A stretch of DNA of 64,000 nt from Haloarcula marismortui ATCC 43049 (GCF_000011085.1 NC_006396.1:1612001-1676000); one strand, 5' to 3'. Shown: positions 6,301-63,384, counted from the first letter of the stretch. Notes: a model not told the origin generated them from the sequence alone. Numbers and translations: made by a program.

Positions 6301-8145
6301 ATGTCGCTGGAGTGGCGCGGCGCGGCGGTTGCGCCGGACGACGAGATGCCGTCCCCGGAGGCGTGGGAACCAGTATCGGTTCCCAGCCGGCCCGGACAGT
6401 TCGCCGGTGCCGAGGCCGTGGCCTACGAAACGACGTTCTCGGACCCACGGGACGAGAGCGACGCACACACCCTGCTTGTACTGAGTGGAATCTACGCGCA
6501 CACACGCGTGTGGTGCAACGGTGAGTTGCTCACCAGCCACGACGCCTACTTCGAACCGCTCCGGGTCCGACTCCCCGAGAGCGAAGAGTACCGGATCGTC
6601 GTGGAGTGTCGCGCACCCGAGGACCGCTTCGGCGGGTTGCACGCGACTGACCAGCTTCCGTCGGAGCGCTGTGTCCCGGGCATCTGGTGGGACGCGACCC
6701 TCGAAACCCGACCGGACCCGTGTGTGAGCGAACTCTCGGTCCAGCCACAGCTATCCGAAGCAGACGTAACCGACGCGTCGGTGGACGTGTCAGCGACCAT
6801 CCTGACTGAAGAGCCACTCGACGACCGGATTACGCTCTCGCTTCGGCCGGAGGGCGACGTTCGCGGGGGCGGGATGATGGACCGAGCCCGCGTCTCGACC
6901 GACGAGGAGACGGCGACAGTGACCTACACAATGGACGTGCGCGACCCGTCGCTGTGGTGGCCCCACGACCGCGGCGAGCAGTCCCGTTACGTTCTCAGGG
7001 CGAAGCTCGGGGACGACGAGCACTCAGTGACGACGGGACTGCGGACGGTTTCGTACGACGGTGGCCTGCGGGTCAACGGCGAAAGCGTGCCGGTTCGCGG
7101 TGTGACGCTGCGCGATCCGACCGTCGAGGATGTCGCACGGGCCGTTGACGCTAACGCGAATCTCGTCCGGGTTCGAGCACAGGGAACGTCGCCAGAAGTG
7201 GCTTGCGCCTGTGACGACCACGGCGTCCTGCTCTGGCAGGACCTTCCCCTGTCGGGCCCCGGTTCGTTCGACACCGAACGAGGAACTGCCCTTGCAGCGC
7301 GGCTCACTGCGACCTACGCACAGCATCCCAGTTTCGCGGCGGTCGGTGTTCACGACGAGCCAGTGTCGCCGTATGCTGACGGACTGGGCTCTGGGTTCCT
7401 CGACAGGCTTCGGTTCCGGTGGCGTGCCTGGCGAGCCGGCTACGACAGCGCGGACGCCGAATCGGTGGCGTCGGCTGTTGACTCCGTCCCAACGTTCCCG
7501 GTAGTCGGCCCGCCCGGAATCGACCCCGACGCGACCACGCTGTACCCAGGGTGGCGGTACGGCGACGCAGCCGACCTCCCGTGGCTCTATTCCAGATTCA
7601 ACGTCAGCGATGCCGTTGCCGGCTTTGGCGCCGGTGCGCTGGGAACGCCGGGCTCAGGCGATAGTCCTGGGTTCGATAGTGCCTGCCACGACCGCCACGT
7701 CGACGGCGGAGTCGAAGCATCGCAGGCGTATCAGGCTGGTGTCGTCCGCGAGGTTGCCGAGTCGCTCCGGCGACGCAACGCGCCGCTCGTTGTCGTTGAC
7801 AGCCTTCGAGATGTCGGTGATGCGGGCATGGGCCTGCTCACCGCTGATGGGACCGAAAAGGCGGCGTTCAGTGTTCTTGCCGACAGCTACGAGCCCACAC
7901 AGGTGATACTCTCGGATGCAGCGCCCGGCGAGCAAGATATTGTTGTCCTCCACGACCGTCCAGAAAAAGCGGACCTCACTGTGGAGTGGGACTGCAACGG
8001 GGACCGCGAACAGGCCGAACACACTGTCGGCCCATTTGCCCGCGTCACCGTCGACACACTCACCCTTTCAGCCGGTGACGATGTGACGCTTGCAGCCACC
8101 GACGGCCAGACTGTCGTCAAGAATGAGTACCGTATTATCGAGTAA
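6301..8145 (+). CDS. glycoside hydrolase family 2-like protein, probably divergent
   Basis: About 614 residues from the ATG at 6301; an in-frame ATG at 6274 is an alternative. The N-terminal third has a GH2 sugar-binding-like jelly roll (GIYAHTRVWCNGELLTSHD, FGGLH), then an Ig-like domain ending DVRDPSLWWPHDRG. A TIM-barrel-like region follows, introduced by GLRVNGESVPVRGVTLRD and DDHGVLLWQDLPL, the usual GH2 motif pair. The acid/base region reads HPSFAAVGVHDEP, where GH2 enzymes normally have Asn-Glu, and I find no clear nucleophile motif. Activity on beta-glycosides is uncertain. No signal peptide is visible. Confidence 0.72.
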   Translation: MSLEWRGAAVAPDDEMPSPEAWEPVSVPSRPGQFAGAEAVAYETTFSDPRDESDAHTLLVLSGIYAHTRVWCNGELLTSHDAYFEPLRVRLPESEEYRIVVECRAPEDRFGGLHATDQLPSERCVPGIWWDATLETRPDPCVSELSVQPQLSEADVTDASVDVSATILTEEPLDDRITLSLRPEGDVRGGGMMDRARVSTDEETATVTYTMDVRDPSLWWPHDRGEQSRYVLRAKLGDDEHSVTTGLRTVSYDGGLRVNGESVPVRGVTLRDPTVEDVARAVDANANLVRVRAQGTSPEVACACDDHGVLLWQDLPLSGPGSFDTERGTALAARLTATYAQHPSFAAVGVHDEPVSPYADGLGSGFLDRLRFRWRAWRAGYDSADAESVASAVDSVPTFPVVGPPGIDPDATTLYPGWRYGDAADLPWLYSRFNVSDAVAGFGAGALGTPGSGDSPGFDSACHDRHVDGGVEASQAYQAGVVREVAESLRRRNAPLVVVDSLRDVGDAGMGLLTADGTEKAAFSVLADSYEPTQVILSDAAPGEQDIVVLHDRPEKADLTVEWDCNGDREQAEHTVGPFARVTVDTLTLSAGDDVTLAATDGQTVVKNEYRIIE

Positions 8146-8412
8146 TACAGGTGCGTGATATACCATGGAAGCTCGGTGCGATAGTGACCGTCACACCCCC
8201 TGAATTATGGCGTGTGAGACGTTGACGCGGTATTCAATGCACCGGAATGTTTAAACAATATCCACCTCTATTTGTAGACACCAGAACGCTTCCGCGTTCA
8301 GGCAGTATCGCTTTCAGCCCAACATGAGAGGGAACCCTTGTTATTGGTGTCAGCCCCTCAGTAGTGGGTCAACTGTCTGTGCTGAAGCGGTGCTGGCATA
8401 GAGGATTCAACA
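8146..8412 (+). other. intergenic region upstream of the coiled-coil gene
   Basis: 267 bp without a gene. It holds an AT-rich promoter-like stretch (GTTTAAACAATAT near 8250) and then moderately GC-rich leader sequence. If that TATA-like site is used, the leader before the ATG at 8413 would be over 100 nt, unusually long for this genome. No clear hairpin or uORF is seen. Confidence 0.4.
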
Positions 8413-9303
8413 ATGGCAGACTCGATAGACGAATCAAAGAACGTTACAGTAACAGAAGAGGATCTTGAAAACAAATCGAAAGGCGAGCTTATCAAACTCG
8501 CCGGCCAGCTTCGTGACCGACGGAACGAGCTGAACCAGATGGCGTCCGAGCGGGCCTCCGCCCGAGACGACCTGAACGCGAAGACTCGCGAGAAGGTCGA
8601 CGAAGCGCAGGAACACCGCGAGAAGCGCGACGAACTCAACGAGCAGGTCCAAGAACACAAAGACCAGCGTAACGAGCTCAATGCGGAAGCAAACGAGCTG
8701 TTCGACAAGGTCGACAACCTGAAAAACGACCTCGAACTCGATGAGGGGACGTCAGTCGAACAACTCAAAGAGGAAATCGAGGACCTCGAGTTCAAGCAAC
8801 AGACCGAAGTGCTCTCCTCGGAAGACGAGAAGGAGCTCATCGAGAAGATCGAGACCAAGCGCGAAAAGCTCCAGGAGAAACAGGAGAAGCTCGATCAGGG
8901 CGGCGACCTCGAAGAGCTCAAAGAGGAAGCAGAAGAGGTCCGCTCTGAAGCCTCAAAGCACCACCAGAAGGTCACGGAACTGGCCGACGAGGCCCAGAAG
9001 CACCACAACGAGATGATCGAGGCCTACCGCGAGGCCGACGAGATCCGTGACGAGGCCGACGAGAAGCACGAGGAGTTCGTGGATGCTCAGGAAGCGGCCG
9101 ACCAGCACCACGAGGACTTCGTCCGCGTCCAGAAGCGCCTCCGCGAACTCGACAAGAAGGAAGAAGAGCAGGAGCGCTCCCAGCGCGAGGAGAAGCAGGA
9201 AGCCGCTCGCGAGGAAGCAGAGGAGATTTATCAGAAGTTCAAGGAAGGCGAGACCCTCGACACCGAGGACCTGATGAAGCTCCAGAAGGCCGGCAAGCTG
9301 TAA
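8413..9303 (+). CDS. archaeal coiled-coil protein (COG1340-like)
   Basis: A protein of 296 residues that is almost entirely charged heptad-like helix from about residue 15 to 285 (repeated E/K/R/Q with L, A and V; many EEL, EKREEL and HHE segments). There is no membrane segment or enzymatic motif. It resembles conserved archaeal coiled-coil proteins sometimes grouped as COG1340 (from memory); their role is unknown. It is a single-gene unit followed 38 nt later by the LysE gene, which may be transcribed with it. Confidence 0.75.
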   Translation: MADSIDESKNVTVTEEDLENKSKGELIKLAGQLRDRRNELNQMASERASARDDLNAKTREKVDEAQEHREKRDELNEQVQEHKDQRNELNAEANELFDKVDNLKNDLELDEGTSVEQLKEEIEDLEFKQQTEVLSSEDEKELIEKIETKREKLQEKQEKLDQGGDLEELKEEAEEVRSEASKHHQKVTELADEAQKHHNEMIEAYREADEIRDEADEKHEEFVDAQEAADQHHEDFVRVQKRLRELDKKEEEQERSQREEKQEAAREEAEEIYQKFKEGETLDTEDLMKLQKAGKL

Positions 9304-18207: not shown

Positions 18208-21200
18208 TTACATGAAACTCCCGAGTCCTGTCTGTTCCTGCCCGGATTTGACCTCTTCCCAGGAGATGTCCATTGCCTCCAGAATGCGGGCAATCGGCCC
18301 TTTCAGCGTCTTATCGAGCATCTTGTCCCAGTCGATCTCGAACTCCTCGGGGATCTGGTCTGCGTACTCGAAACAGATTACGTCAGGGTCCCGCCGGAAC
18401 TCGCCGTACAGCGGGTCCCGCTGGGGGTCCAGTCCTTCTTCCTCCTCGATACGCTGGAAGAAGTCCGAGTGGACCCGGTCGAGATACAGTCGCTTGGGCT
18501 TGGACCCGCTCTGGAAGTTCGTTCCCAGAAGCATGTTGGCGTACTTCGCGCCCCGGACCTGCGCAGTGTCGGTGTCGTAGTTGTCGAGTTTCTTCCCGAT
18601 GCCACCGGGAATACCTACGTCGTCGTAGTTGACGTTGCCGTCCTGATAGTCCTCGATGACATCGCTGACGTACTGCTTGATGGACTCTGCGTCCTCTCCG
18701 CGGACGATGCGGTCGATGACCTCCTTCTGGACCCGCTTGGTGATGGGCGCGATATCGGACCGCTGGTATTCGAACCCGGTGATATCGATGTCGTCGACGT
18801 GCTTGCCCTCTTTCCAGACGATGTTGCCCGCGTAGCGCTTCTTTTTGCCCGCCTGGAAGAACCGGCGGTAGAGCTTCTCGAACTCGATTTCGAAGCGGTG
18901 GAACTGGGCGTTAAGCCGCTCCATCGCGAACTCGTCGTAGGAGGCGTTAATCGTCTCCTCCAGTTCGAACCCTTTCTGGATGGTCGTCGCGATGAGTTCG
19001 AGCTCGTCGTCGTCCATCTCGGGGTGTTTCTCGCGCATCTCGTCGGTGATTTCGACGTCGCCTTCGACGTCGTCTGGACCGACATTGCCAAGTTGTAGCA
19101 TGACGGAGTCGGTGTCCCCGTAGACGACCTCGTACCCCTCGTTTGCGACGACTTCGTCGGTGTAGTCGATGACCTCGCGACCGGTGGCGGTGACCGCTGC
19201 GCCCATCTCCTTGTCGTAGAGACGGAACCGGTCCCACCCCAGAACGCCGTATAACGACTGACCGACGAACTGGAATTTCCCGTTGCGGCCGGCCATGAGC
19301 GTGTGGTTGTCCGCAACGGTGACACAGTAGACACCGTCGTCGGCCGTACTCCGTGACCCGCTGCGATGCATCCGGAGCGTGTTCTTGTTGTCTTCCGTGA
19401 CGTAGATTCGCCAGGAGCCGCTGTCACGGTTGTAGTTCGCAGTCAGTCCGAGATGCGCACAGAGCCGGAGCACGTCGTCGCGGAGTTGGTCACTGGAGGT
19501 GGTGTACCGCCAGGAGTTCTTCTGTCGGTCTCCGTCACCGGCGATAAGCGTGTCGAGGAAGCGCCGCTTCTGTCGGTGGCTCAGGTCGAAGACGAACTCG
19601 GGAATCCGCTTCTCGAAACTGTCCTCGCCGCAGATGTTACAGAGCAGGTCGCCCAGCAGCGCCGACGTGAACTGGTAACTCCGGTCGTCGACGTAGTAGT
19701 CGAACCCCAGTCGGTCGAGGAGGTCACCAATTGCCGCGTGGTCGGACTCGCCGCCGTCCGCGATGGCTTGCTGAGCGATTTTGACCGTGGTCGATGCCCC
19801 GCGGGTCTTCTCCCCGAACTGTTTCGTCTCGGAGGTGTAGACGTTCCCTTCGGTGATGTACCACGCGAGCAGTTCGAGGAAGTCGTCGCCGTCGAAGGTT
19901 CGCGGTATCCACTTCCGGCCCGATTCGGCGTGGATATACGTCCGTTCGGCGACGGATTCGATATACTCGCGGTTGGCCTCGAACTCCTTGGGGCCGAAGA
20001 CGTACCCTTCCTCGCCGATATCGTTTTTCAACACTGTGTCCGGATAGTGGCCAATCTCGGCGGCGAACGTGTGGCCGTGGACCGACGGCCGGACCCACAC
20101 CTCGTAGTCGTCGACGTACTCGGTCAGATCCACCGTGTCCAGCGGGTCGCCGTCCGGTCCGTCCCAGTCGTGGGGGAGTTCGTAGTTCGTGGCATCGTCG
20201 AGGTCACCAGCTTCGACGAAACTGTACCCGTCTTCAGTGATTCCGTTGGTCTCGTTCTTTCGGACGAGCATCCGGTGGTTCGGCGTCACACGGAAGTCCA
20301 TCTTGCTCGTCTCTATATCCACGAGGTCGCCGCGGTAGTCCGGATACGACTGTGTCTCGACCACCGGTTTGACCTCCATCTCCTCCGTCTCGGGGTCCAG
20401 CGAATACACCTCGTCGCCGATATCAAGGTCGCGAATGTTCTGAACGCCTTCCGGTGTCAGCACGTCGGTATCCGGCGTGAAGCAGTTCATGATAACCTTG
20501 ACGGCGGCCTGCTGCCTGTCAAAGCGCTCGTACTCGGGGTTGTCCGGGTCGAAGCTGTTTCGCTCGGCTTTCTTTTCCTCGCGTTCTGACAGGAGTTCGT
20601 CGACCATCTCCCGGATGACGCCGTCCGGTTCCTTCCGGAAGTGGGTACCGTTGGGGGCGCGGTAGGTATCGCCGTCGTAGGTCTCCGGGTCAACCTTCGT
20701 CTCTGGGCTGGCGTTGGTCGTCACCATGCACATCGGGTACAGCGACTTCAGGTCCAGCACGGTGACGTTCTCGCGGACGCCCGTAATAGGGTCAAACACT
20801 GCGCCGCCCTCGTAGTCCTCGCTCTCCTGTTGCCCTTTCGAGGGGAGCGCGAACTCGCCATGGAGCTTGTGGAGAACGTACATGTCCACTGCGTCGCCGG
20901 GCGTCGTCGCGTCCTCCAGTTTGCAGCCGACGAAGGTGCGGACCTCATCCCAGAAGTCGATGATGTCCTGTTCGCGGTCGAGTTCGACACAGAGCTCCAC
21001 GTCCCGGAGGTTGTACTCCAGCAACTGCTCGGGGTCCTGCTCCCAGAGGTCACCGATGTCGCCAGTGTAGCGTTCCTTGCCGACGCCGAGTTCCTGCTCG
21101 CCGACGGCGTCAAGCCGGTAGGATTCGAGTTCAGTGAACTGCGTTCGCTTGTAGGCATAGAGGAGGTCGAAGACGACACGGCCTTTGATATCGGGGCCAC

Positions 21201-22251
21201 CCCAGCCCGAACGCCAGACCTCGTCGACCCGCGAGAGTCGGTCGATCTGGAGATCGAAGTCGTGGTTGTAACTCTGGAGTTCCTCCAGACGGTCAAGGAA
21301 GTACGGCGCGTCGAAGTCGTCGAAATTCCAGCCAGTCAGCACGTCTGGGTCGGTGTCGACGATGTAGTCGACGAACGCCTCCAGCATGGCCTCCTCCTCG
21401 TCGAAGACGCGCACGTCGGCCTCGAAGTCCTCCCGAATCGGGTCGTAGCCGGCCAGCGCCTCGGGGCCGTCGATGCCGTCGGGGGACTCGTACAGCCAGA
21501 CGACGTACTCGTCGCGGTAGGAGTCGTGGGAGGTGAGACAAATGATCGGTTCCTCGCCGTCCTCGGGGAACCCCTGTCTGTCGTCGACCTCGATGTCGAA
21601 GGTGTTGACCCGCGGGTCAGCGTGAGCTTCAACCGGCGTTATTTCCTCGTGATGGACCTTCAGACTCCCGTCGTCGAGTTCGCGGGCGGGGACGCGAACG
21701 CCACTCGTGATGTCCTTGTCGATGAGCAGGCGGTTGGGAAAGAGGATGTCCGCCTCGTAGTGGTCGAAGTCGTCACGGATCTGTCCCACATCGCGTGGCG
21801 TCTGGCCGAATATCTTCGTCAGACGCTCGCCTCGAATCGATTCGTAGGGGTCGCCGTCCGCGTCGGCTTCTTCCCAGCCGGCGATGCTGTCGTACTGGCG
21901 GAGTCCGTCCTCGGTGACGCTGTCAGTCGGTGCGTAGAAGTAGGGCTGGAAGTCGAAGACCCGCGCATGGACCGACTCATTGTCGTCAGTGCGCCCGAAA
22001 ACGTGGACGACCGGTGACTCATCATCGCCCTGCCCCTCGATGGTGTAGTCGACCTGCGTGACGACGAACTCGACGGTCTCCTCGACCGGCGGGAACTGGC
22101 GCTCGTCGAGGTCGACGACGCTCGTGTCACCGTCGTCGCTCCCACCGTTGCCCGCGATGGCCGCCGCTTCGTCGGCGACCGGGCGGTCGTCTGTGCCCGC
22201 GTCTGCGTCCTGCCCGAAGTCCCCCAGCGTGCCCTGGGTCCCGTCACTCAT
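18208..22251 (-). CDS. polB: family B DNA polymerase (PolB) precursor with intein
   Basis: 1347 residues from the ATG at 22249-22251; the frame is open upstream, but a TTTTTATGC TATA-like box near 22276-22284 fits this start. The exonuclease domain has FDIEVDD (Exo I), GWNFDDFDAPYF (Exo II) and YNLRDVELC (Exo III). The polymerase domain has DLKSLYPM (motif A), KVIMN then SLYG (motif B, split by the intein) and YGDTDSVM (motif C). Without the 409-residue intein the enzyme is about 938 residues. A PCNA-binding-like QTGLGSFM ends the protein and a similar QGTLGDFG lies at residues 6-13. It is the replicative or repair polymerase, divergent from the small gene at 22359. Confidence 0.96.
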   Translation of the reverse strand: MSDGTQGTLGDFGQDADAGTDDRPVADEAAAIAGNGGSDDGDTSVVDLDERQFPPVEETVEFVVTQVDYTIEGQGDDESPVVHVFGRTDDNESVHARVFDFQPYFYAPTDSVTEDGLRQYDSIAGWEEADADGDPYESIRGERLTKIFGQTPRDVGQIRDDFDHYEADILFPNRLLIDKDITSGVRVPARELDDGSLKVHHEEITPVEAHADPRVNTFDIEVDDRQGFPEDGEEPIICLTSHDSYRDEYVVWLYESPDGIDGPEALAGYDPIREDFEADVRVFDEEEAMLEAFVDYIVDTDPDVLTGWNFDDFDAPYFLDRLEELQSYNHDFDLQIDRLSRVDEVWRSGWGGPDIKGRVVFDLLYAYKRTQFTELESYRLDAVGEQELGVGKERYTGDIGDLWEQDPEQLLEYNLRDVELCVELDREQDIIDFWDEVRTFVGCKLEDATTPGDAVDMYVLHKLHGEFALPSKGQQESEDYEGGAVFDPITGVRENVTVLDLKSLYPMCMVTTNASPETKVDPETYDGDTYRAPNGTHFRKEPDGVIREMVDELLSEREEKKAERNSFDPDNPEYERFDRQQAAVKVIMNCFTPDTDVLTPEGVQNIRDLDIGDEVYSLDPETEEMEVKPVVETQSYPDYRGDLVDIETSKMDFRVTPNHRMLVRKNETNGITEDGYSFVEAGDLDDATNYELPHDWDGPDGDPLDTVDLTEYVDDYEVWVRPSVHGHTFAAEIGHYPDTVLKNDIGEEGYVFGPKEFEANREYIESVAERTYIHAESGRKWIPRTFDGDDFLELLAWYITEGNVYTSETKQFGEKTRGASTTVKIAQQAIADGGESDHAAIGDLLDRLGFDYYVDDRSYQFTSALLGDLLCNICGEDSFEKRIPEFVFDLSHRQKRRFLDTLIAGDGDRQKNSWRYTTSSDQLRDDVLRLCAHLGLTANYNRDSGSWRIYVTEDNKNTLRMHRSGSRSTADDGVYCVTVADNHTLMAGRNGKFQFVGQSLYGVLGWDRFRLYDKEMGAAVTATGREVIDYTDEVVANEGYEVVYGDTDSVMLQLGNVGPDDVEGDVEITDEMREKHPEMDDDELELIATTIQKGFELEETINASYDEFAMERLNAQFHRFEIEFEKLYRRFFQAGKKKRYAGNIVWKEGKHVDDIDITGFEYQRSDIAPITKRVQKEVIDRIVRGEDAESIKQYVSDVIEDYQDGNVNYDDVGIPGGIGKKLDNYDTDTAQVRGAKYANMLLGTNFQSGSKPKRLYLDRVHSDFFQRIEEEEGLDPQRDPLYGEFRRDPDVICFEYADQIPEEFEIDWDKMLDKTLKGPIARILEAMDISWEEVKSGQEQTGLGSFM
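19258..20484 (-). other. intein in PolB motif B with LAGLIDADG-type endonuclease domain
   Basis: In-frame insertion of 409 residues (precursor residues 590-998) that interrupts the conserved KxxxN-SxYG polymerase motif. It begins with Cys (CFTPDTDVLTPEG, block A), has block B as RVTPNHRMLVR, and endonuclease blocks LLAWYITEGN and LIAGDGDRQ. It ends VYCVTVADNHTLMAGRNGKF then QFVGQ before the extein Ser. The last residue is Gln with Gly before it, not the common His-Asn. Self-splicing and homing activity are expected from the motifs but unproven. Confidence 0.93.
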
Positions 22252-22358: not shown

Positions 22359-22550
22359 ATGTCGCACCACGCATCCCCCCACGGCGAGGCGGATAGGTCC
22401 GAAGAACTGCGGTCGGAGCCGGCGCTCCCGGACGCCATCCAGACGACCGAGACCTACGAGACCGAGGAGGGGACAGTGTTTTACGATGCAGAGAACCCTC
22501 TCGCGTGGCTACAGACTGATACGGCACTCACCTTACAGGAGATTGCATAA
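22359..22550 (+). CDS. small haloarchaeal protein (DUF7331-like) used as integration target
   Basis: A protein of 63 residues with an acidic N-terminal half and the segment GTVFYDAENPLAWLQTDTAL. From memory this matches the haloarchaeal DUF7331 family; function unknown. A TATA-like AGTATATG near 22318 serves it, divergent from polB. Its 3' third (22482-22543) is one copy of the 62-bp direct repeat bounding the integrated element. The final codons ATT GCA TAA come from the element, while the original host end ATC GCC TGA lies at 29184-29192. Both encode Ile-Ala-stop, so the protein is unchanged by integration. Confidence 0.85.
   Translation: MSHHASPHGEADRSEELRSEPALPDAIQTTETYETEEGTVFYDAENPLAWLQTDTALTLQEIA
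22482..22543 (+). repeat. left attachment site (62-bp direct repeat)
   Basis: Identical over 62 bp to 29125-29186. It covers codons for the last 20 or so residues of the small host gene. The host part lies to its left and the element's replacement 3' end (ATTGCATAAGC) to its right. Confidence 0.93.
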
Positions 22551-22927
22551 GCCCGTTTTCAGGGGTTACGCAACTTGCCGCTTTGTATAGCCCCACGCAG
22601 TAGGGTATGCTCTTGCCTGCTGGCGGTTCGAGTGTATAGTAGGTGCCAATACACCTAGTTCTTTCGACCGTTCAAGGCCACAAACCCGATTAGACGCGTC
22701 GCACGCGGGATAAGACGCCAATTCCTCAATGAGTGTATCGCTCTACCCTATGGAGAGAGATACGGAACAGCAATATTTGCCGCTTTTCTACAGTCGTGCG
22801 ACTGAAGCAGTCGCCCTAAAGAGTGCGAATTCGATGATTCGTACAAAGTCGTAGCAGTTCTGATGGGGATAAGTGGTTCCTACGTCGGTATCATCACCGC
22901 TACTTCGTGCGAAGACGTAGTATTCGC

Positions 22928-22956
22928 ACTCAATGGTGCGGAGTTATCCGCACAAC
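22928..22956 (-). repeat. left copy of 29-bp inverted repeat
   Basis: It is the exact reverse complement of 28005-28033 and includes a GCGGA-GTTA-TCCGC hairpin. Similarity continues outward (to about 22990) into the G-rich motif that recurs near 26044-26073, 27606-27645 and 27964-28010. Confidence 0.85.
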
Positions 22957-23001
22957 AGCGACCGCTGCGGGAGAGCCAAAGGGGACAACACTGCTACCCC
23001 T

Positions 23002-23090
23002 GCCTAAGCTTGCTTAGGCCGTGGGTACGCACGGTGTGAACCGTGCAACCCTACCCGTCGTAATTAGGTTGGGAAGGTAACATCTTTTTT
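23002..23090 (+). ncRNA. candidate two-hairpin RNA ending in a T tract
   Basis: Hairpin 1 is GCCTAAG-CTTG-CTTAGGC (23002-23019). Hairpin 2 is GCACGG-TGTGAA-CCGTGC (23029-23046) inside GGGTA/TACCC (23023-23027 and 23052-23056). A CATCTTTTTTAT tract follows at about 23081-23092, resembling an archaeal terminator. It could be a small RNA or the structured end of a longer transcript; expression is unknown. Confidence 0.4.
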
Positions 23091-23211
23091 ATCGGGGTGC
23101 GGGGTGCATAAATGGCCACTCTGCATCAGTTCGCTATCACAGATGTAACGGAATCTTCGATTCCTTACGGCGCATATATAGCAAAATCAATAATATGATT
23201 TAAACTTAATT

Positions 23212-23230
23212 TTTTCTATCAGATAGAAAA
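23212..23230. promoter_or_regulatory. 19-bp perfect palindrome, possible operator
   Basis: TTTTCTATC-A-GATAGAAAA, a 9-bp perfect inverted repeat with one central base. It lies in an AT-rich tract and about 17-25 bp upstream of the TATA-like box at 23247, as expected for a regulator binding site. It could also be part of an AT-rich origin. Confidence 0.5.
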
Positions 23231-23246
23231 TAATCCAATATACTGC

Positions 23247-23256
23247 CTTTTTAAAT
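23247..23256 (+). promoter_or_regulatory. TATA-like box of the candidate structured RNA
   Basis: CTTTTTAAAT centred near 23252 predicts transcription start about 26 bp downstream, at 23278, the first base of the structured segment. A second TTTTTATACC follows at about 23259-23268. Confidence 0.45.
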
Positions 23257-23277
23257 CCCTTTTTATACCATGCGCTC

Positions 23278-23441
23278 AGAAACAGTAGTGAAGCGGTGAG
23301 ATTCCGTTTCAACTTCAAGCTTGCTGCTACCTGTGGAAGTTTGAAGTCGTTGTCCATGTGGCGGGTTAGTCACCCGCCTGCTGCTGTCTGTTTCTATCGT
23401 GGCTACTATTTTCAGCCACAACCTATCACTACCGCTGATAG
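23278..23441 (+). ncRNA. candidate structured non-coding RNA of the element
   Basis: A closing stem AGAAACAG (23278-23285) with CTGTTTCT (23388-23395) encloses a stem ACTTCAA/TTGAAGT (23312-23318 and 23341-23347) and a perfect hairpin GGCGGGT-TAGTC-ACCCGCC (23360-23378). Two more hairpins follow: GTGGCT/AGCCAC (23399-23404 and 23414-23419) and CTATCA/TGATAG (23423-23428 and 23436-23441). A TATA-like box sits at the right distance upstream on the plus strand. It lies just past the stop of the leftward operon, so a role as that operon's 3' structure or as a replication origin is the main alternative. Confidence 0.5.
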
Positions 23442-23447
23442 ATTCGT

Positions 23448-23744
23448 CTACATAAAATCAGATAACCCGTTTTGATTCTCAAAATCATCTAACCGCTTTT
23501 GTTCCTTATCAATAATCTTCGAGTAACCACTCTTTTTCCTCTCTATAGACACATCAAGTTCCTTCGCAGCATGCCGAACAGATTGGCGGCTTATATTAAA
23601 TAACTGACCTATTTCAGCTAAGCTAAGATGTAATTCGTTATGTAGGTAACCTAACACTCTTGCATCCCACCACGGTTTTTGTTTTTCAGCTAATATTCTA
23701 GAAACTTTTTCATTATCGACGGAAATATCGTAGGGATGGCTCAT
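23448..23744 (-). CDS. 98-residue helix-turn-helix protein of the element
   Basis: Residues 26-65 hold an HTH of the type common on haloarchaeal plasmids: WWDARVLGYLHNELHLSLAE, then IGQLFNISRQSVRHAAKELD. A basic tail (ERKKSGYSKIIDKEQKR) follows, so it should bind DNA. Its ATG overlaps the stop of the upstream gene by 4 nt (ATGA), making it the last gene of the six-gene operon. The DARxLxYL and SxAE elements are shared with the 230-residue protein at 24496-25188, suggesting related DNA-binding modules. It may be the element's regulator. Confidence 0.75.
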   Translation of the reverse strand: MSHPYDISVDNEKVSRILAEKQKPWWDARVLGYLHNELHLSLAEIGQLFNISRQSVRHAAKELDVSIERKKSGYSKIIDKEQKRLDDFENQNGLSDFM

Positions 23745-24460
23745 TCGTAGAACACTCCCATCGCTGATTGAACAGTAAAATCGCAGTCTTCAACGTAGGA
23801 TTGAACGTCGTCCCTACCTTTCAGCCGTCGCTGAAACAGCTTAGGTAGCGTCTCAGCGTCTTCGAGTAGGTTCAAGGCGGTATTTGTTTCTGCATCAGAT
23901 ATATCGCCGTGTAGTGCTTCTACGACGATGCTATCTACGTCTGCCCGACGTGCTTTCTCAGCTATATGACTATCATCGGCCACGCACAACGCACCCACGG
24001 CGATTTTTTCCAGTGAGTGGCCTTGCCCATCCACAGCAGAGGCCAGTGTCCGTGCTTCATTCCGCGTAGCTGATGGAATAGAAAACTCTGCCGCAATTCT
24101 ATCGACTACTCCGAGTTTATCCTGATGGGCACGCCTACCAGTTGTATCAGACGGCTGAGAAACCTCGGATTTGTAGCCGTCTGGGTCTTCGTAGCTCGGT
24201 GACGCCCCTTCATTCAGCATCCACAACCTTCGCCACTTTTCTTGTTTCTGCTGTGGAATATCGCCACGGTCGAATCTGCTGCCGTGACTGCTATCCCCGT
24301 CGTAGTCCCTTCGTCCGCTATACTCACTAATTTCGTAGGCATCTCGCTCTCGCACTACGGTTTTAGGGTTATGTGCCGTATCTCCAATATCTCGGCTAAG
24401 ATTATCGCTGCTGCTGTTCCATCCGACTCTACTGTTACCTGCTGCTGTTTGTATAGTCAT
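23741..24460 (-). CDS. 239-residue element protein with cyclin/TFB-like helical core
   Basis: Residues 60-170 read RFDRGDIPQQKQEKWRRLW, NEGASPSYEDPDGYKSE, HQDKLGVVDRIAAEFSIP and GHSLEKIAVGALCVADDSHI. The helical pattern resembles the cyclin-like core of TFB. From memory it also resembles haloarchaeal proteins annotated as RNA polymerase subunit epsilon. The N-terminal 60 residues are polar and probably disordered. A role in transcription of the element is inferred, not shown. It starts 35 nt after the preceding gene and is coupled to the HTH gene that follows. Confidence 0.6.
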   Translation of the reverse strand: MTIQTAAGNSRVGWNSSSDNLSRDIGDTAHNPKTVVRERDAYEISEYSGRRDYDGDSSHGSRFDRGDIPQQKQEKWRRLWMLNEGASPSYEDPDGYKSEVSQPSDTTGRRAHQDKLGVVDRIAAEFSIPSATRNEARTLASAVDGQGHSLEKIAVGALCVADDSHIAEKARRADVDSIVVEALHGDISDAETNTALNLLEDAETLPKLFQRRLKGRDDVQSYVEDCDFTVQSAMGVFYE

Positions 24461-24495
24461 TGATAATTACTGCTGCCTGTTGGTTTGCTAACTAT

Positions 24496-25188
24496 TCAGA
24501 AATCGGATGTGCTAACTGTTAGCCCATCTGTGCCCGAAGTCTCAGATTCCGATAGACTCGCCCCACCCAATCGAATATCGTCGCGCTCACCGTCGTCACC
24601 GTCACCGATGAGAAGTCCGACCATTTCCAGTTCTGTGCGAATATCTGTATTATCCACCGTCCAACGTGGTTTCTCTGCCCCCCGCCCGTGATTCCGTTCG
24701 GATTCCAGAAACTCCCGCATCTCGGCAATAGAGTAACCGCAATCTACGTAGAGATATTCGAGTAGACGGGCGTCTCTATAGATAGGGCTACGGAACTGTT
24801 CTGTAGCCACGACCGTGCCATCAGGAAGCTCAATTTCGCTCTCAGATGGCTGTGCATCGTCTTCAACTGATTCTGGGCGGTCTACATCATGCAGTTCAAG
24901 CGCCTTGCTCACAACCGTTACATCGGCTCTCAGTTCATCAGAGATATCACGGACTGAACCAATAAGCCGATGCTCAACGAGAGTTTCCAGAACCCCGCTG
25001 GCGTCTGGTGAGAGAATATCATCACTGCGGGGATATTCGCTGTAATCCCGATTTAAGAGTGGGTCACCATTCGAGAATCCAACAGCGGGATAATCTCGTT
25101 CAAGTCCGACATCGGCTTCATCTGGACGTTCATCAGCACGTTCCCCATCTCTTTCTCGTGCCTCTTTAAGTTGTTCGTTATCCAACAT
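24496..25188 (-). CDS. 230-residue element protein with two helix-turn-helix-like segments
   Basis: Starts at the ATG at 25186-25188, which overlaps the upstream gene's stop (TAATG). Residues 60-105 (SGVLETLVEHRLIGSVRDIS, then DELRADVTVVSKALELHDVD) look like one HTH. Residues 130-190 (FRSPIYRDARLLEYLYVDCG, then YSIAEMREFLESERN) look like a second, related to the HTH in the 98-residue protein. Both ends are acidic. It is probably a DNA-binding protein of replication or regulation; I do not recognise a named family. Confidence 0.6.
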   Translation of the reverse strand: MLDNEQLKEARERDGERADERPDEADVGLERDYPAVGFSNGDPLLNRDYSEYPRSDDILSPDASGVLETLVEHRLIGSVRDISDELRADVTVVSKALELHDVDRPESVEDDAQPSESEIELPDGTVVATEQFRSPIYRDARLLEYLYVDCGYSIAEMREFLESERNHGRGAEKPRWTVDNTDIRTELEMVGLLIGDGDDGERDDIRLGGASLSESETSGTDGLTVSTSDF

Positions 25189-25475
25189 TACTCTCCGCCT
25201 CCATATGCAGAAATTGGAACGGCATACCACAGCGTCTCATCGGCCACATCAGTACCAAGAATCTCAGAATCCCCCTCTACCTCTGTATGACCTACATCAT
25301 TGCTCAGAACGACGTATTCAGACTTTTTGCCACGGCCAACAACACTGATTTTAAAGGTGCCATCTCCTCGCTGACCTCCACCATAATGGCCACAGTCCTT
25401 CCGTCCAATTTCACTTGGTAGCTCTATGGTCGTTCCAGCGGAGGGGGTGAAAACGATGCTAAAAACCTCAGTCAT
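25188..25475 (-). CDS. 95-residue beta-rich element protein, function unknown
   Basis: Starts at the ATG at 25473-25475, overlapping the upstream stop by 8 nt; an upstream in-frame start at 25511 would overlap much more. The sequence alternates short hydrophobic strands with Gly/Thr/Ser turns (VFSIVFTPSAGTTIELP, FKISVVGRGKKSEYVVLS) and contains one Cys. No family is recognised. It is the third gene of the six-gene operon and translationally coupled on both sides. Confidence 0.6.
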   Translation of the reverse strand: MTEVFSIVFTPSAGTTIELPSEIGRKDCGHYGGGQRGDGTFKISVVGRGKKSEYVVLSNDVGHTEVEGDSEILGTDVADETLWYAVPISAYGGGE

Positions 25476-25650
25476 TGTACATTTCCCTCCGTTCATCACG
25501 GTAATCTGCAAATTCGTCGGGAATATGGCTGAATGTACCGTTGTTTGGCTCTGGATAATGCGATTTGCACCAGTATAGACCCTTCTTATCTAGAAATGGG
25601 GGGAGAATAATCTTACATCCGTCTTCACCGCAAGTCTCATCAACTACCAT
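25468..25650 (-). CDS. 60-residue zinc-finger-like element protein
   Basis: A CGEDGC pair near the N-terminus (C-x4-C, residues 7-12) and WCKSHY (C-x2-H, residues 27-31) could form one zinc site around a short beta hairpin. The rest is acidic. It begins in a TGATG overlap with the preceding 50-residue gene. It is probably a small DNA- or protein-binding finger; the family is unrecognised. Confidence 0.6.
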   Translation of the reverse strand: MVVDETCGEDGCKIILPPFLDKKGLYWCKSHYPEPNNGTFSHIPDEFADYRDERREMYND

Positions 25651-25802
25651 CAGAAACCAATCTCCGAATCTTCAGCCAGCAGTTGCTTAGCTCCCTCAGC
25701 CGCTACGTAGCCGAGGGGTAGCGTCTCATCCTCACTATCTCGTGCGGCCTTCAGCGTACTTAGTTCGCTCTCTGATACTCGAATATTTTTCTCTCGTGTC
25801 AT
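25650..25802 (-). CDS. 50-residue ribbon-helix-helix-like element protein
   Basis: Starts at the ATG at 25800-25802 and is the first gene of the operon. The sequence begins MTREKNIRVSESELSTLKAA, a beta strand followed by a helix as in ribbon-helix-helix repressors. A second helix (VAAEGAKQLLAED) follows. Such proteins bind DNA as dimers and often autoregulate. A perfect hairpin (25821-25840) covers the predicted transcription start just upstream and would be a natural operator. Confidence 0.55.
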   Translation of the reverse strand: MTREKNIRVSESELSTLKAARDSEDETLPLGYVAAEGAKQLLAEDSEIGF

Positions 25803-25820
25803 TTGAATCAACCTCAGAAA

Positions 25821-25840
25821 CGTAGCACTTCTGTGCTACG
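25821..25840. promoter_or_regulatory. perfect 8-bp hairpin at the operon start, possible operator
   Basis: CGTAGCAC-TTCT-GTGCTACG. The minus-strand TATA-like GATATAG at 25850-25856 predicts transcription start near 25827, inside this hairpin, 20-40 bp before the first gene. Either a repressor site or a structured leader. Confidence 0.5.
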
Positions 25841-26103
25841 CTCCTTCTACTATATCGTACTGACAGGTTATGGAGCCAATCTATTGCTGGATTTCTATAT
25901 TCCTGATGTCCTACCATCGTCCTACAATCACTCTCAGAAGCCACAGAATACGCTGTGTGTAATCCTATTCAATTGCGAGTGGTATTCATTGGAATGGAAT
26001 ACCGACCGCTTGAGAAGCCGTGTAGACGGTTACAGCTACTGCTACCGCTGGGGAGAGTCAAAGACCGCTCCCCAACTGCTGCTGTACGGAACAATAGTGA
26101 GGC

Positions 26104-26172
26104 GTGGTAGGTTTGTATATTACTTAAGTGGGTAAGCACAGAAACATTAGTAAGAAGGGCGGTTGCGGTGAC
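26104..26172 (+). repeat. left arm of long imperfect inverted repeat
   Basis: Closely reverse-complementary to 27483-27553. Perfect blocks are 26144-26163 with 27492-27511 (20 bp) and 26116-26129 with 27527-27540 (14 bp). Similarity continues inward to the hairpin module at 26238-26299. The arms enclose the gene at 26431-27120. Confidence 0.8.
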
Positions 26173-26237
26173 TTAGTGCGGTGTGTTGTGGCTGTGACTA
26201 AGACCGTGTTCTGAAGGGCGTTTGCTGTAGATTTCAT

Positions 26238-26299
26238 CAGCGTGTGGCTGTGACTCATACTCATCTACAGCAAACGAGTGTAGAATTATTGGTACGCTG
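26238..26299 (+). repeat. hairpin module 1
   Basis: About 60 bp bounded by CAGCGTG and ACGCTG, with an inner stem ACTC/GAGT around CATCTACAGCA. It is related to modules at 27122-27181 and 27360-27417. Its flank (toward 26195) is the inverted copy of the flanks after those modules. Confidence 0.65.
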
Positions 26300-26430
26300 G
26301 TAGATTATTCAATAATGTTTAAACTCGAAATCATGTGTCCGTCTATATCGTGGCACTTCGGTCGGAATAAGCAAATGGGTATTTGCAAGACTGAAAAGAT
26401 GAAAATAGCCTCCAATTGTGGTGATATATC

Positions 26431-27120
26431 GTGGTAATTTCGTCTAATAGTTGTGAAAAGGGTAAGAATAGTTCGGAGTGTCCAGAATGTAGTAACGAAT
26501 ATCAGAGACTCGGAATGCACTTTAGTCATGTCCCTTCTCATCGGCCAGAGTTGAGCGAGTTACAGTTAGGAGTTGTAGAGTATTTGATACTACGCGGTGT
26601 CACCATTGAAGATAGAACATCTCACCCTTCTATCGACGTATTCAGTACGGATAGAGAGCTTTTACGCGCCTACGATGACCTATTGGGGTGGCTGAGTAAT
26701 GGAATTCGATTGTATAAAGATTCTGATACTACCACAAAGAGATTGAACGACGTGTATGCTATCTCTACGATTCCACACCCTGAGCTTGAGAATTATGCCG
26801 AAGGTAGCACGTCGGTGAAATCTCTCAGCAACAGCTGTTTGAAGGCTACAATCATCACTGCTGGCACTTTTGTAGGTGACTTGTTTGGTAGCCTACAAAT
26901 CGACCTACGGGGTTGGGACGTAGATAGTGATAGATTCGCTGATATGCTGGCTGATAGAGGATATGATACAGTTTCCTACGACGGTGACGGCTATGCACGT
27001 AATAGCCCCACCCACCGCTACCATTACTCAGACGATGTGTTGGTTTTAGAACACTACGATGCGATGAATCTGCTGGATGAAATAGACCTATCTCTCGAAA
27101 CTGTAGCCGAACCGATATAA
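26431..27120 (+). CDS. homing-endonuclease-like protein with zinc finger, catalytic motif degenerate
   Basis: 229 residues from a GTG start. The N-terminus has CPECSNEYQRLGMHFSH, a C-x2-C...H-x3-H finger. Residues 45-120 (VVEYLILRGVTIEDR, then VFSTDRELLRAYDDLLGWLS and DVYAISTIPHPELENYA) follow the layout I recall for haloarchaeal LAGLIDADG-like endonucleases. There an LLLGDG-type motif would carry the catalytic acid; here it reads LILRGV. The protein may therefore bind DNA without cutting. Inverted repeats flank the gene on both sides. Codon use is AT-rich compared with host genes. Confidence 0.55.
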   Translation: MVISSNSCEKGKNSSECPECSNEYQRLGMHFSHVPSHRPELSELQLGVVEYLILRGVTIEDRTSHPSIDVFSTDRELLRAYDDLLGWLSNGIRLYKDSDTTTKRLNDVYAISTIPHPELENYAEGSTSVKSLSNSCLKATIITAGTFVGDLFGSLQIDLRGWDVDSDRFADMLADRGYDTVSYDGDGYARNSPTHRYHYSDDVLVLEHYDAMNLLDEIDLSLETVAEPI

Positions 27121-27121
27121 C

Positions 27122-27181
27122 CAGCGTGGATATTACCCACACTCATCTACAAAAGAGTGTGTGTGGTATGTTGGCACGCTG
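27122..27181 (+). repeat. hairpin module 2
   Basis: Bounded by CAGCGTG and CACGCTG, with inner stem CACACTC/GAGTGTG. It is followed by ATGAAACCACAGCAAACCGC and a block resembling that after module 3. Confidence 0.7.
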
Positions 27182-27359
27182 ATGAAACCACAGCAAACCG
27201 CCCTTTAGAACACGGTCTTAGTAACCGCCTCAGCCAGCAAGAAACGTGAGTAGTCCGCCCCACCGCGGTGGGGTAGGGTGTATGTTGGTATACGTTCTAC
27301 AGCTAATTAAATGCAACGACCATAGCACCAACACTAATCTGAATCGTAGAGTATTCAAT

Positions 27360-27417
27360 CAGCATGAGTATTACCAACGCTCATCTACAGCAGGAGCGTA
27401 GAACTGTTGGCACGCTG
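27360..27417 (+). repeat. hairpin module 3
   Basis: Bounded by CAGCATG and CACGCTG. Inner stems are CCAAC/GTTGG and CGCTC/GAGCG around ATCTACAGCAG. Compared with module 2, paired positions differ on both sides, keeping the stem. Confidence 0.7.
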
Positions 27418-27482
27418 ATGAAATCTACAAAACTCCCTTCAGAACACAGCCTTAGCCACCGCACAGCAATTCAACAACGGTA

Positions 27483-27553
27483 GTCACCACCACCGCCCTT
27501 CTTACTAATGTATCTGTGCAGATACTACTTAAGTAATATAGAAGCACTACCAC
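27483..27553 (-). repeat. right arm of long imperfect inverted repeat
   Basis: Reverse-complementary to 26104-26172 with scattered differences. Together with the outer G-rich motifs, the similarity spans roughly 26040-26300 versus 27410-27650. Confidence 0.8.
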
Positions 27554-28004
27554 CCACCACCCACCACCACCGCTGAATCGCAGAGAATTGTGGTGGCGGT
27601 AGTTGGGGGCGGTTCTCTGCCCTCCCCAGCGGTAGCGGTTGTGCGGCTTATACATTCGTACTGCAGGTTTCGTGCTATCCGAACAACCCCGTGGAGTACT
27701 GTTTGCACCCCATAGACTGTGGGGGTTGGAGTGGTGCAAACGGGTTGCACGGCCCTACAGCAATACCCGAACGTCGCTGCTGGTGGTATGTTCGTGGTAG
27801 CAGGTTGCTACGTACAATATTCCGTCTCTGTACGTTACATCTGTGATAGGAACGTTCTACAGCAAATATAGGGGTATAGAAACACCCCATTCAGCCACTC
27901 GCTACAATTCAGATTAGACGCGTTGTGTGTGCGCACGAAAGTGGGGTGCGGAGTGGGGCGGTAGTTGGGGGAGGGGGCGGTCTTTGGCTCTCCCCAGCGG
28001 TGCT

Positions 28005-28033
28005 GTTGTGCGGATAACTCCGCACCATTGAGT
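28005..28033 (+). repeat. right copy of 29-bp inverted repeat
   Basis: Exact reverse complement of 22928-22956, about 5.1 kb away. It lies just inside the integrase gene's 3' end. Confidence 0.85.
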
Positions 28034-28068
28034 CCCGACTCTACGACTCGGGACGAAGTGTGGTGCGT

Positions 28069-29091
28069 CTACACGCCGTCTAAGTATTCACGCCTCTGTT
28101 CTGCCTTCTCGTCTTCAGTACGACGGTCGTAGTGTTGTTCCAGCACATCAGTCGAGACGTTCATTCTATCTGAGACGACTTTCTCAGGCACGTCTTTGCG
28201 GAGGAAGTGCGTGATAGCACCACGTCGAATAGGATGCCCGCTCACACTTGATGGGCAGTCACTCGCATTAGACATTGATTGGGCAGCCGCACACTCGTTT
28301 TTATCACGACCATGGGGGCATCTATTTCCGTATATGCACGGTCGAGTAATTGCCTGAAACCACCGCCGTAGTGTTTTCACTGGTGCCCGACCGTTTTCAG
28401 TAGCGAATAATGGCACTCTCTCGTAGTCGTCTTCAATATCCATACGCTTGTGATTGATGTAGTCTTCTAACACCTCTGCTACATCTTCTGAGAGCGCACA
28501 GTACCGTTCCGCTTTCTCACCATTCTTTAGCGGGGTATCACTATCGGGCCGATGTCGAATCCGTAGGCGGTTCTGAGCGGGTTCCACGTCGTCTACATCC
28601 AAGGCGACTAACGTGCCCGTTCGAATCCCTGTGTGCCATGTGAGCGCCAATAGGGCGTGTTCTCTTGATGCATAGGCGAACCGTTCCAGATAGTCTAATG
28701 CTGCTTCTGCATGGTCGGCTTCAAGCGTCTCTGTTCGAGCCTCCGTATCTCGGTTCGGAATTTCTACCCGCTCAGGTACAGACGGACTCACTGCGTCTAT
28801 CGTCGTACAGAACTGTAAGAACCGCCGAACCGAGCTAACCCGCTGCGCAAGTGTTGATTGTGCTATATCACCTTTAATTTTCAAGCGGAATCTATGAACG
28901 GTGCGGGCAGAGATATTCCGCATATCGTCTATATCTTCTTCAGCCAACCACTCAACAAATTCATTGAGATGGAACTGTTGTAATTCTTTAGTCGCTGTAG
29001 CCCATTCGTCTACCTTGCTTTCGAGATACAGTCGTAGTGCCTCTACGGGGGTGATAGCTTGCAGGTCGGTCGGATTGGTGTTTGCTTTCAT
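28069..29091 (-). CDS. int: tyrosine recombinase / integrase
   Basis: A protein of 340 residues. A SAM-like N-terminal core-binding domain spans about residues 12-105. The catalytic domain has HTGIRTGTL (Arg I), a Lys-containing beta hairpin, HPIRRGAITHFL (H-x-x-R) and LEQHYDRRT (nucleophile Tyr). A cysteine-rich insertion CIYGNRCPHGRDKNEC lies before box II and may bind metal. It should catalyse integration and excision between the two 62-bp sites. The ATG is 33 bp from the right attachment site. I see no clear TATA box upstream, so expression may depend on sequences within or beyond the attachment site. Confidence 0.95.
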   Translation of the reverse strand: MKANTNPTDLQAITPVEALRLYLESKVDEWATATKELQQFHLNEFVEWLAEEDIDDMRNISARTVHRFRLKIKGDIAQSTLAQRVSSVRRFLQFCTTIDAVSPSVPERVEIPNRDTEARTETLEADHAEAALDYLERFAYASREHALLALTWHTGIRTGTLVALDVDDVEPAQNRLRIRHRPDSDTPLKNGEKAERYCALSEDVAEVLEDYINHKRMDIEDDYERVPLFATENGRAPVKTLRRWFQAITRPCIYGNRCPHGRDKNECAAAQSMSNASDCPSSVSGHPIRRGAITHFLRKDVPEKVVSDRMNVSTDVLEQHYDRRTEDEKAEQRREYLDGV

Positions 29092-29124
29092 CGTTGGTCC
29101 GAACCACCAGCAAGCGGTCGCATC

Positions 29125-29186
29125 TACGATGCAGAGAACCCTCTCGCGTGGCTACAGACTGATACGGCACTCACCTTACAGGAGAT
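29125..29186 (+). repeat. right attachment site (62-bp direct repeat)
   Basis: Identical to 22482-22543. To its right is the original host end of the small gene (ATC GCC TGA at 29184-29192); to its left is element DNA without the gene's 5' part. Confidence 0.93.
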
Positions 29187-29233
29187 CGCCTGACAGGAAG
29201 TACTTTTAGCGTCCACACGTCGTAGCTAGTGTG

Positions 29234-62418: not shown

Positions 62419-63384
62419 ATGAGTGAACACACACGGACACGACAGCAGCGTGAAGAACAGACGACGGAGTCGACGGAATCGGAGAGCACAGCGTGCCCGG
62501 AGTGCAGTGGCTCGCTCGTTATCGACGACGAACACGGCGAAACGGTCTGTGAGGACTGTGGCCTGGTCGTCGAGTCCGACGAAATCGACCGCGGCCCCGA
62601 GTGGCGCGCGTTCGACTCCAGCGAGAAAGACGAGAAGTCCCGCGTCGGTGCGCCGACGACGAACATGATGCACGACAAGGGGCTGTCGACCAACATCGAC
62701 TGGCGCGACAAGGACGCCTACGGCAACTCCCTGTCGGGCAAGCAGCGCCAGAAGATGCAGCGCCTGCGCAAGTGGAACGAGCGCTTTAGAACGCGAGACT
62801 CCAAGGAACGCAACCTCAAGCAGGCCCTCGGTGAGATTGACCGGATGGCTTCTGCGCTCGGCCTCCCCGAAAACGTCCGCGAAACGGCCAGCGTCATCTA
62901 CCGCCGCGCGCTCGACGAGGACCTGCTGCCCGGCCGCTCCATCGAGGGTGTCTCGACAGCTTCCGTCTACGCCGCCGCGCGACAGGCTGGCGTCCCACGC
63001 TCGCTCGACGAGATCACGGAGGTCTCCCGCGTCGAGAAGAGCGAAATCGCCCGGACCTACCGCTACGTCGTCCGCGAACTCTCGCTCGAAGTGCGCCCTG
63101 CTGACCCCGAGAGCTACGTTCCGCGCTTTGCTTCCTCGCTGGAACTGTCCGACGAGGCCGAGCACCGCGCCCGCCAGCTTCTCCAGAACGCAAAAGAGCA
63201 GGGCGTCCACTCTGGGAAGTCACCGGTCGGCCTCGCCGCCGCCGCGGTGTACGCCGCCGCACTGCTGACCAACGAGAAGACGACGCAGGCCGCCGTGTCT
63301 GAGGTCGCCGACATCTCCGAGGTCACTATCCGCAACCGGTATCACGAACTGCTGGAAGCCGAGCAGGACCTGCCTGTCGCGTAA
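62419..63384 (+). CDS. tfb: transcription initiation factor IIB (TFB)
   Basis: A protein of 321 residues. The N-terminal zinc ribbon has CPEC and CEDCGLVVESDEIDRGPEW. The B-finger/linker region is GAPTTNMMHDKGLSTNIDWR. Two cyclin repeats follow (NLKQALGEIDRMASALGLP, VYAAARQAGVPRSLDEI; then HRARQLLQNAKEQG, AAAAVYAAALLTNEKTTQAA). It recruits RNA polymerase to TATA-bound TBP. Haloarchaea usually encode several TFBs, and which paralogue this is cannot be told. Confidence 0.96.
   Translation: MSEHTRTRQQREEQTTESTESESTACPECSGSLVIDDEHGETVCEDCGLVVESDEIDRGPEWRAFDSSEKDEKSRVGAPTTNMMHDKGLSTNIDWRDKDAYGNSLSGKQRQKMQRLRKWNERFRTRDSKERNLKQALGEIDRMASALGLPENVRETASVIYRRALDEDLLPGRSIEGVSTASVYAAARQAGVPRSLDEITEVSRVEKSEIARTYRYVVRELSLEVRPADPESYVPRFASSLELSDEAEHRARQLLQNAKEQGVHSGKSPVGLAAAAVYAAALLTNEKTTQAAVSEVADISEVTIRNRYHELLEAEQDLPVA

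Follow-up and report, generated by a model that had tools for sequence, protein, structure and literature searches.

The window analysed here, a stretch of 64,000 nucleotides within a 3.1-Mb contig of the 4.27-Mb genome of Haloarcula marismortui ATCC 43049, harbors a 6.6-kb element integrated at the 3′ end of a protein-coding gene. We consider this element, with a probability of about 80%, to be an intact plasmid-type integrative element and a member of a cryptic integrative family of haloarchaea, the core of which is a pair of genes termed C and D.

Ends and target site of the element

A first-pass annotation of the window had described a perfect 62-bp direct repeat at both ends of the element. 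The two copies (22482–22543 and 29125–29186) are indeed identical, with a start-to-start spacing of 6643 bp and an identity far above chance. With one mismatch (98% identity), the repeat extends to 65 nt, which places attL at 22482–22546 (+ strand; checked against empty sites) and attR at 29125–29189 (+ strand; defined by direct-repeat comparison). The DNA between them is AT-richer and foreign-looking, as had been claimed: the G+C content per 1-kb segment is 44–51% in the element and 55–70% in its surroundings. Elsewhere in the window, positions 8001–9000 show a local drop in G+C content (54.5%) and a strong AT skew (0.31).

The 62-bp repeat represents the 3′ end of a DUF7331 family gene (22359–22550, + strand; 63 amino acids; PF24018, 1.9e-23). 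The left copy reads on into GAGATTGCATAA, the right one into GAGATCGCCTGA; in congeneric genomes, empty sites finish with GC followed by CTGA, like the right copy. The element has therefore brought its own gene end: the 5′ part of the gene belongs to the host, and the last codons and the stop belong to the element, so that a host ...EIA followed by TGA became ...EIA followed by TAA. The supplied codon is synonymous, the reading frame is intact and the protein is unchanged. The annotation was thus right to place the element in a protein-coding gene, with the qualification that this gene is restored and not destroyed. Beside the target lies a family-B DNA polymerase gene (18208–22247, – strand) with an apparent intein (NCFTPDTDVLTPEG ... 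VGQSLYGVLG) and an endonuclease-like middle part, as judged from its translation only.

In 28 of 30 congeneric genomes, DUF7331 and its neighbor DUF7322 are 42–131 bp apart, and the two genes are split only in the present genome and in a second one, G016. The joined flanks of the element match the congeners at 88–96% of positions, ungapped or almost so. The scenario in which the locus would always be fixed, with no empty-site allele in close strains, is therefore not borne out. In G016, the same DUF7331 site is filled by a related element of 6.8 kb with the same gene order. Comparison of filled and empty sites shows that the element integrated at the end of DUF7331; its excision by the reverse reaction would yield a circle of 6,643 bp. 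All eight element genes show dN/dS values of 0.07–0.25 between the two genomes, indicating purifying selection, and the spread of their dS values (0.42 to 2.6) suggests a mosaic history of the two elements. In either genome, attL and attR agree completely over 62 nt or more, and 5 of 65 positions differ between the present genome and G016, a pattern that would result if attP came from the same host species or if the copies were homogenized.

Gene content and noncoding repeats

The minus strand of the element carries the integrase gene and six tightly packed genes, A to F, and the plus strand carries gene G. The six genes overlap or almost abut (23448–25802), in agreement with the predicted operon. 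Likewise, the absence of virus and plasmid hallmarks held up when we searched the element proteins against Pfam, PHROGs and further resources, which revealed neither a capsid or conjugation gene nor a known Rep. A search against Rfam gave no match.

The integrase gene (28069–29091, – strand; 340 amino acids; dN/dS 0.07 relative to G016) has an intact reading frame and is located beside the right repeat copy, as annotated, starting 34 bp away from it. Its product contains a Phage_integrase (PF00589, 1.6e-11) and a SAM-like domain (PF02899, 5e-6), both above the cut-off. It is 41.5–42.1% identical to the integrases of SNJ2 and HHPV4 across 97% of its length, and the grouping criterion for SNJ2-type integrases is an identity of 30% or more across 60% of the protein (PMC8371274). 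Based on this comparison, it is an SNJ2-type integrase with predicted recombination activity. Contig C8 of the same genome encodes at least four more similar integrases (2031016, 1308462, 2121207 and 514748), which points to other integrated elements.

Gene A (23448–23744, – strand; 98 amino acids; dN/dS 0.25) encodes a small protein with an HTH domain match and overlaps gene B by 4 nt. Gene B (23741–24460, – strand; 239 amino acids; dN/dS 0.10) lacks the N-terminal zinc ribbon expected of a TFB (TFIIB), which is retained in its homologue at locus L080 (Zn_Ribbon_TF, 9.8e-7). In hhalign comparisons, a profile of six B proteins is co-linear with the host TFBs over the linker and the first cyclin repeat with a probability of 92%, and of 65% after removal of the zinc ribbon; values did not exceed 0.4% for 30 column-shuffled control profiles or 3% for the other element proteins. 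The zinc ribbon of the L080 homologue and the controlled profile match therefore identify B, by homology, as a TFB-derived protein, and we class it as such and not as a TFB. Because the AF2 model of B is poor (pLDDT 48), this assignment is founded on the controlled profile comparison. One of the roughly ten TFB genes of the host genome, with TFIIB repeats, lies close to the right end of the window (about 62806–63357, + strand).

Gene C (24496–25188, – strand; 230 amino acids) defines the family. Its product is a candidate initiator or partition protein. The AF2 model is helical, confident (pLDDT 80) and contains HTH-like helix groups; a Foldseek search with this model returned nothing at E ≤ 0.001 among solved or viral folds. 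Gene D (25188–25475, – strand; 95 amino acids; dN/dS 0.10) encodes a small protein coupled to C. It is followed by gene E for a small Cys/His-rich protein (25468–25650, – strand; 60 amino acids; dN/dS 0.14) and gene F for a small, possibly ribbon-helix-helix protein (25650–25802, – strand; 50 amino acids; no Pfam match). D, E and F have no match to any family, and sequence-profile searches of the PDB with B, C and G yielded no usable match.

Gene G (26431–27120, + strand; 229 amino acids; dN/dS 0.19) encodes a C2H2-like zinc finger followed by a LAGLIDADG-like region. Its relation to LAGLIDADG proteins is supported by hhalign (98.8% probability with HVTV-1 gp143) and by matches to haloviruses down to 2e-11. 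SDG and GDG are both replaced, so that the catalytic acidic residues of both LAGLIDADG motifs are gone. We therefore rejected a homing endonuclease; as judged from these replacements, G probably binds DNA without cleaving it.

Gene G is flanked by an inverted repeat, the left arm of which (26104–26244, +) is 80% complementary across 145 nt to the right arm (27411–27553, +); the equivalent pair in G016 comprises 149 nt at 85%. In addition, a double-hairpin module is present at 22902–22970 (+; RNA fold z –3.7) and, inverted, at 27991–28060 (–; z –4.8). Among 32 congeners, this module was seen only in the two related elements. In hairpin helix 1, four of nine pairs are changed on both sides with pairing kept when the five copies of the two elements are compared, as occurred in 1 of 500 shuffles; since all changes trace to one divergent copy (W2), they amount to a single lineage of change. 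On the circular form, the two modules would flank the segment containing the integrase gene and att. A DNA search found no copies of the noncoding repeats elsewhere in the genome, ruling out a host repeat or MITE. Stem-loops near G (27119, 27357 and, reversed, 26232) were also considered as structured RNAs, and this claim was dropped because their consensus shows no compensatory pairs.

The C-D family in haloarchaea

We extended the search to other haloarchaeal genomes, as the first-pass annotation had proposed. A profile of C had hits in 23 of the 392 Halobacteria genomes; without two weak ones, about 21 credible genomes remain. D adjoins C in 21 of 22 mapped loci. The full or almost full set of A-B-C-D-E-F plus G is present at L031, L080, L089, L090, L127 and, in Halosimplex aquaticum, L160, although neither B nor a full-length integrase was found at the latter.

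The related elements are 6.5–8.8 kb in size and reside in tRNA genes or at the 3′ ends of protein genes. Based on att repeats, the targets are tRNA-Leu (L082, L083), tRNA-Glu (L086), tRNA-Val (L084; 17 nt), tRNA-Arg (L128) and tRNA-Ser (L130). A 105-nt repeat marks the 3′ end of a thermosome gene (L126; name read off the sequence), and L127 has a 44-nt repeat. The 3′ ends of menB (L080; 15 nt) and aIF-2 (L089; 14 nt) are probable sites, graded so because L089 has another 14-nt repeat. At L079, L085, L087, L088, L090, L091, L124, L125 and L129, we searched for an att repeat and found none. The view that a target in a protein gene sets the element apart as a new class finds no support, since relatives of the element use five types of tRNA gene as well as protein-gene 3′ ends, and in Thaumarchaeota, 14 of the 68 integrated elements for which sites are defined also target the 3′ ends of protein genes (PMC6563490).

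Gene set and integrase do not go together in this family. L080 has the whole gene set in common with the element in the window, yet its integrase is only 29% identical; L084, by contrast, is without A, B, E and G, yet its integrase is 47% identical. Integrases have therefore been exchanged within the family and say little on descent.

The cargo that separates the core from the ends differs among the relatives. Among 56 scanned, mostly accessory proteins, we found one Mrr-like restriction enzyme and one GIY-YIG protein, and no virus or conjugation hallmark. The relatives also encode a HEPN-like protein (L086:5483–6073) and a 626-amino-acid protein without matches (L130:7054–8931).

One relative is a free replicon. 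Plasmid unnamed4 of Halomicrobium urmianum (NZ_CP084094.1) is circular, 4,491 bp in size and carries homologues of F, D and C; a comparison of C with PLSDB gave no match beyond this organism. The plasmid also encodes a coiled-coil/HTH protein (L081:3669–4373, – strand), which may serve in replication or partition; the C-terminal part of this protein is seen again on other plasmids of haloarchaea, with a total of 17 records.

Interpretation and comparison with known systems

We propose that the SNJ2-type integrase would recombine the DUF7331 3′ end carried by the element (attP) with the chromosomal copy (attB), restoring the gene with a new stop codon. C, with its HTH-like helix groups, and D may form a replication or maintenance module. 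The TFB-derived protein B and the HTH protein A could steer the host RNA polymerase toward, or off, element promoters, and the nuclease-dead LAGLIDADG protein G might act as a regulator by binding the repeats around its own gene; homology thus suggests that A, B and G control transcription. The near-universality of C-D and the free plasmid make a plasmid-like maintenance function of this pair conceivable, at somewhat short of an even chance. Counting against it, the 4,491-bp plasmid carries unrelated genes of its own that could replicate it. Autonomous replication is offered as a proposal only, because no known Rep was recognized in the element and C resembles none of the solved or viral folds. 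As neither conjugation nor capsid genes are present, transformation, vesicles, mating or helper packaging are all possible routes of transfer.

The annotation had suggested a small integrative plasmid or a satellite. The first half gains indirect support from the circular relative, and the second is left without positive evidence. A satellite or reduced provirus, packaged by a helper such as a pleolipovirus with the same integrase type, would fit the 42% identity of the integrase to those of HHPV4 and SNJ2, the small size without a capsid gene and the relation of G to halovirus LAGLIDADG proteins. Yet the annotation's alternative of internal genes from a known virus family did not materialize: only G, among the element-internal genes, matches phage records, C, B and D being unmatched in 50,697 of them, and scans of viral contigs (IMG/VR) with C and G returned nothing. 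Given also that integrase swapping weakens the argument from descent and that one relative is a free plasmid, we regard such an origin, including a provirus remnant or satellite whose structural genes escaped recognition, as improbable.

An integrated regulatory or defence island that depends solely on its integrase for movement and solely on the chromosome for replication is a better candidate, if still an unlikely one. The lack of a Rep, the DNA-binding regulator look of most genes and cargo such as the Mrr-like restriction enzyme in some relatives agree with an island, for which the free plasmid would be a distant exception. However, PADLOC identified no convincing defence gene in the present element, and C-D is retained in almost all members, the free plasmid included, whereas cargo varies. 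That the element is dead, a fixed genomic remnant kept by chance, is hardly credible: it is single-copy in the present genome, but all its genes are open and under purifying selection, 28 of 30 congeners are empty at the site, and the att copies have stayed identical within each genome despite the differences between genomes.

We therefore return to the intact plasmid-type integrative element. A broader picture, about which we have more doubt than confidence, is that the family comprises widespread minimal haloarchaeal plasmids that replicate by means of an undescribed C-D initiator module, encode a TFB-derived initiation factor as well as a LAGLIDADG regulator without nuclease activity, and exchange their integrases to select either tRNA or protein-gene 3′ ends. 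The family offers a concrete, testable set of tiny archaeal replicons for which no Rep is known. Because one host class has both occupied and empty sites, integrated as well as free forms, and targets in tRNA and in protein genes, changes of integrase target become traceable. A mobile TFB-derived protein would moreover be a route for the diversification of general transcription factors in haloarchaea.

With regard to known systems, the element has no relaxase, coupling protein or T4SS and is thus not an integrative conjugative or mobilizable element. It shares the integrase family with the pleolipoviruses SNJ2 and HHPV4 (42% identity) but has a non-tRNA target and less than half their genome size, and it lacks both the structural (spike or membrane) and NTPase genes of Pleolipoviridae (no Pfam or PHROGs match) and the replication genes of their genera (RCRE, Rep or PolB). 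The pL6-family plasmids of Haloquadratum are likewise cryptic haloarchaeal plasmids of about 6 kb. They are described as encoding betapleolipovirus-like replicases (PMC11431627), and no such replicase was recognized in the present element. H. urmianum unnamed4 is circular and carries F, D and C homologues arranged as in the element, but lacks the integrase, A, B, E and G, and has the coiled-coil/HTH protein instead.

The closest description is that of the thaumarchaeal cryptic integrated elements (Krupovic et al. 2019; PMC6563490). In the sense of that study the present element belongs to this type, having an integrase, att sites checked against an empty site and no virus, ICE or casposon hallmark. 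Archaeal cryptic integrated elements were hence known before, including those at protein-gene 3′ ends, one of which replaces the stop codon of its target. The scattered haloarchaeal C-D gene family is apparently undescribed, as we found no description in the literature searched, mainly openly accessible papers. The thaumarchaeal elements resemble it in their tyrosine integrase and direct-repeat att sites; they differ in phylum and genes, the haloarchaeal family being built around the C-D core, with att sites that are mostly long, up to 105 nt.
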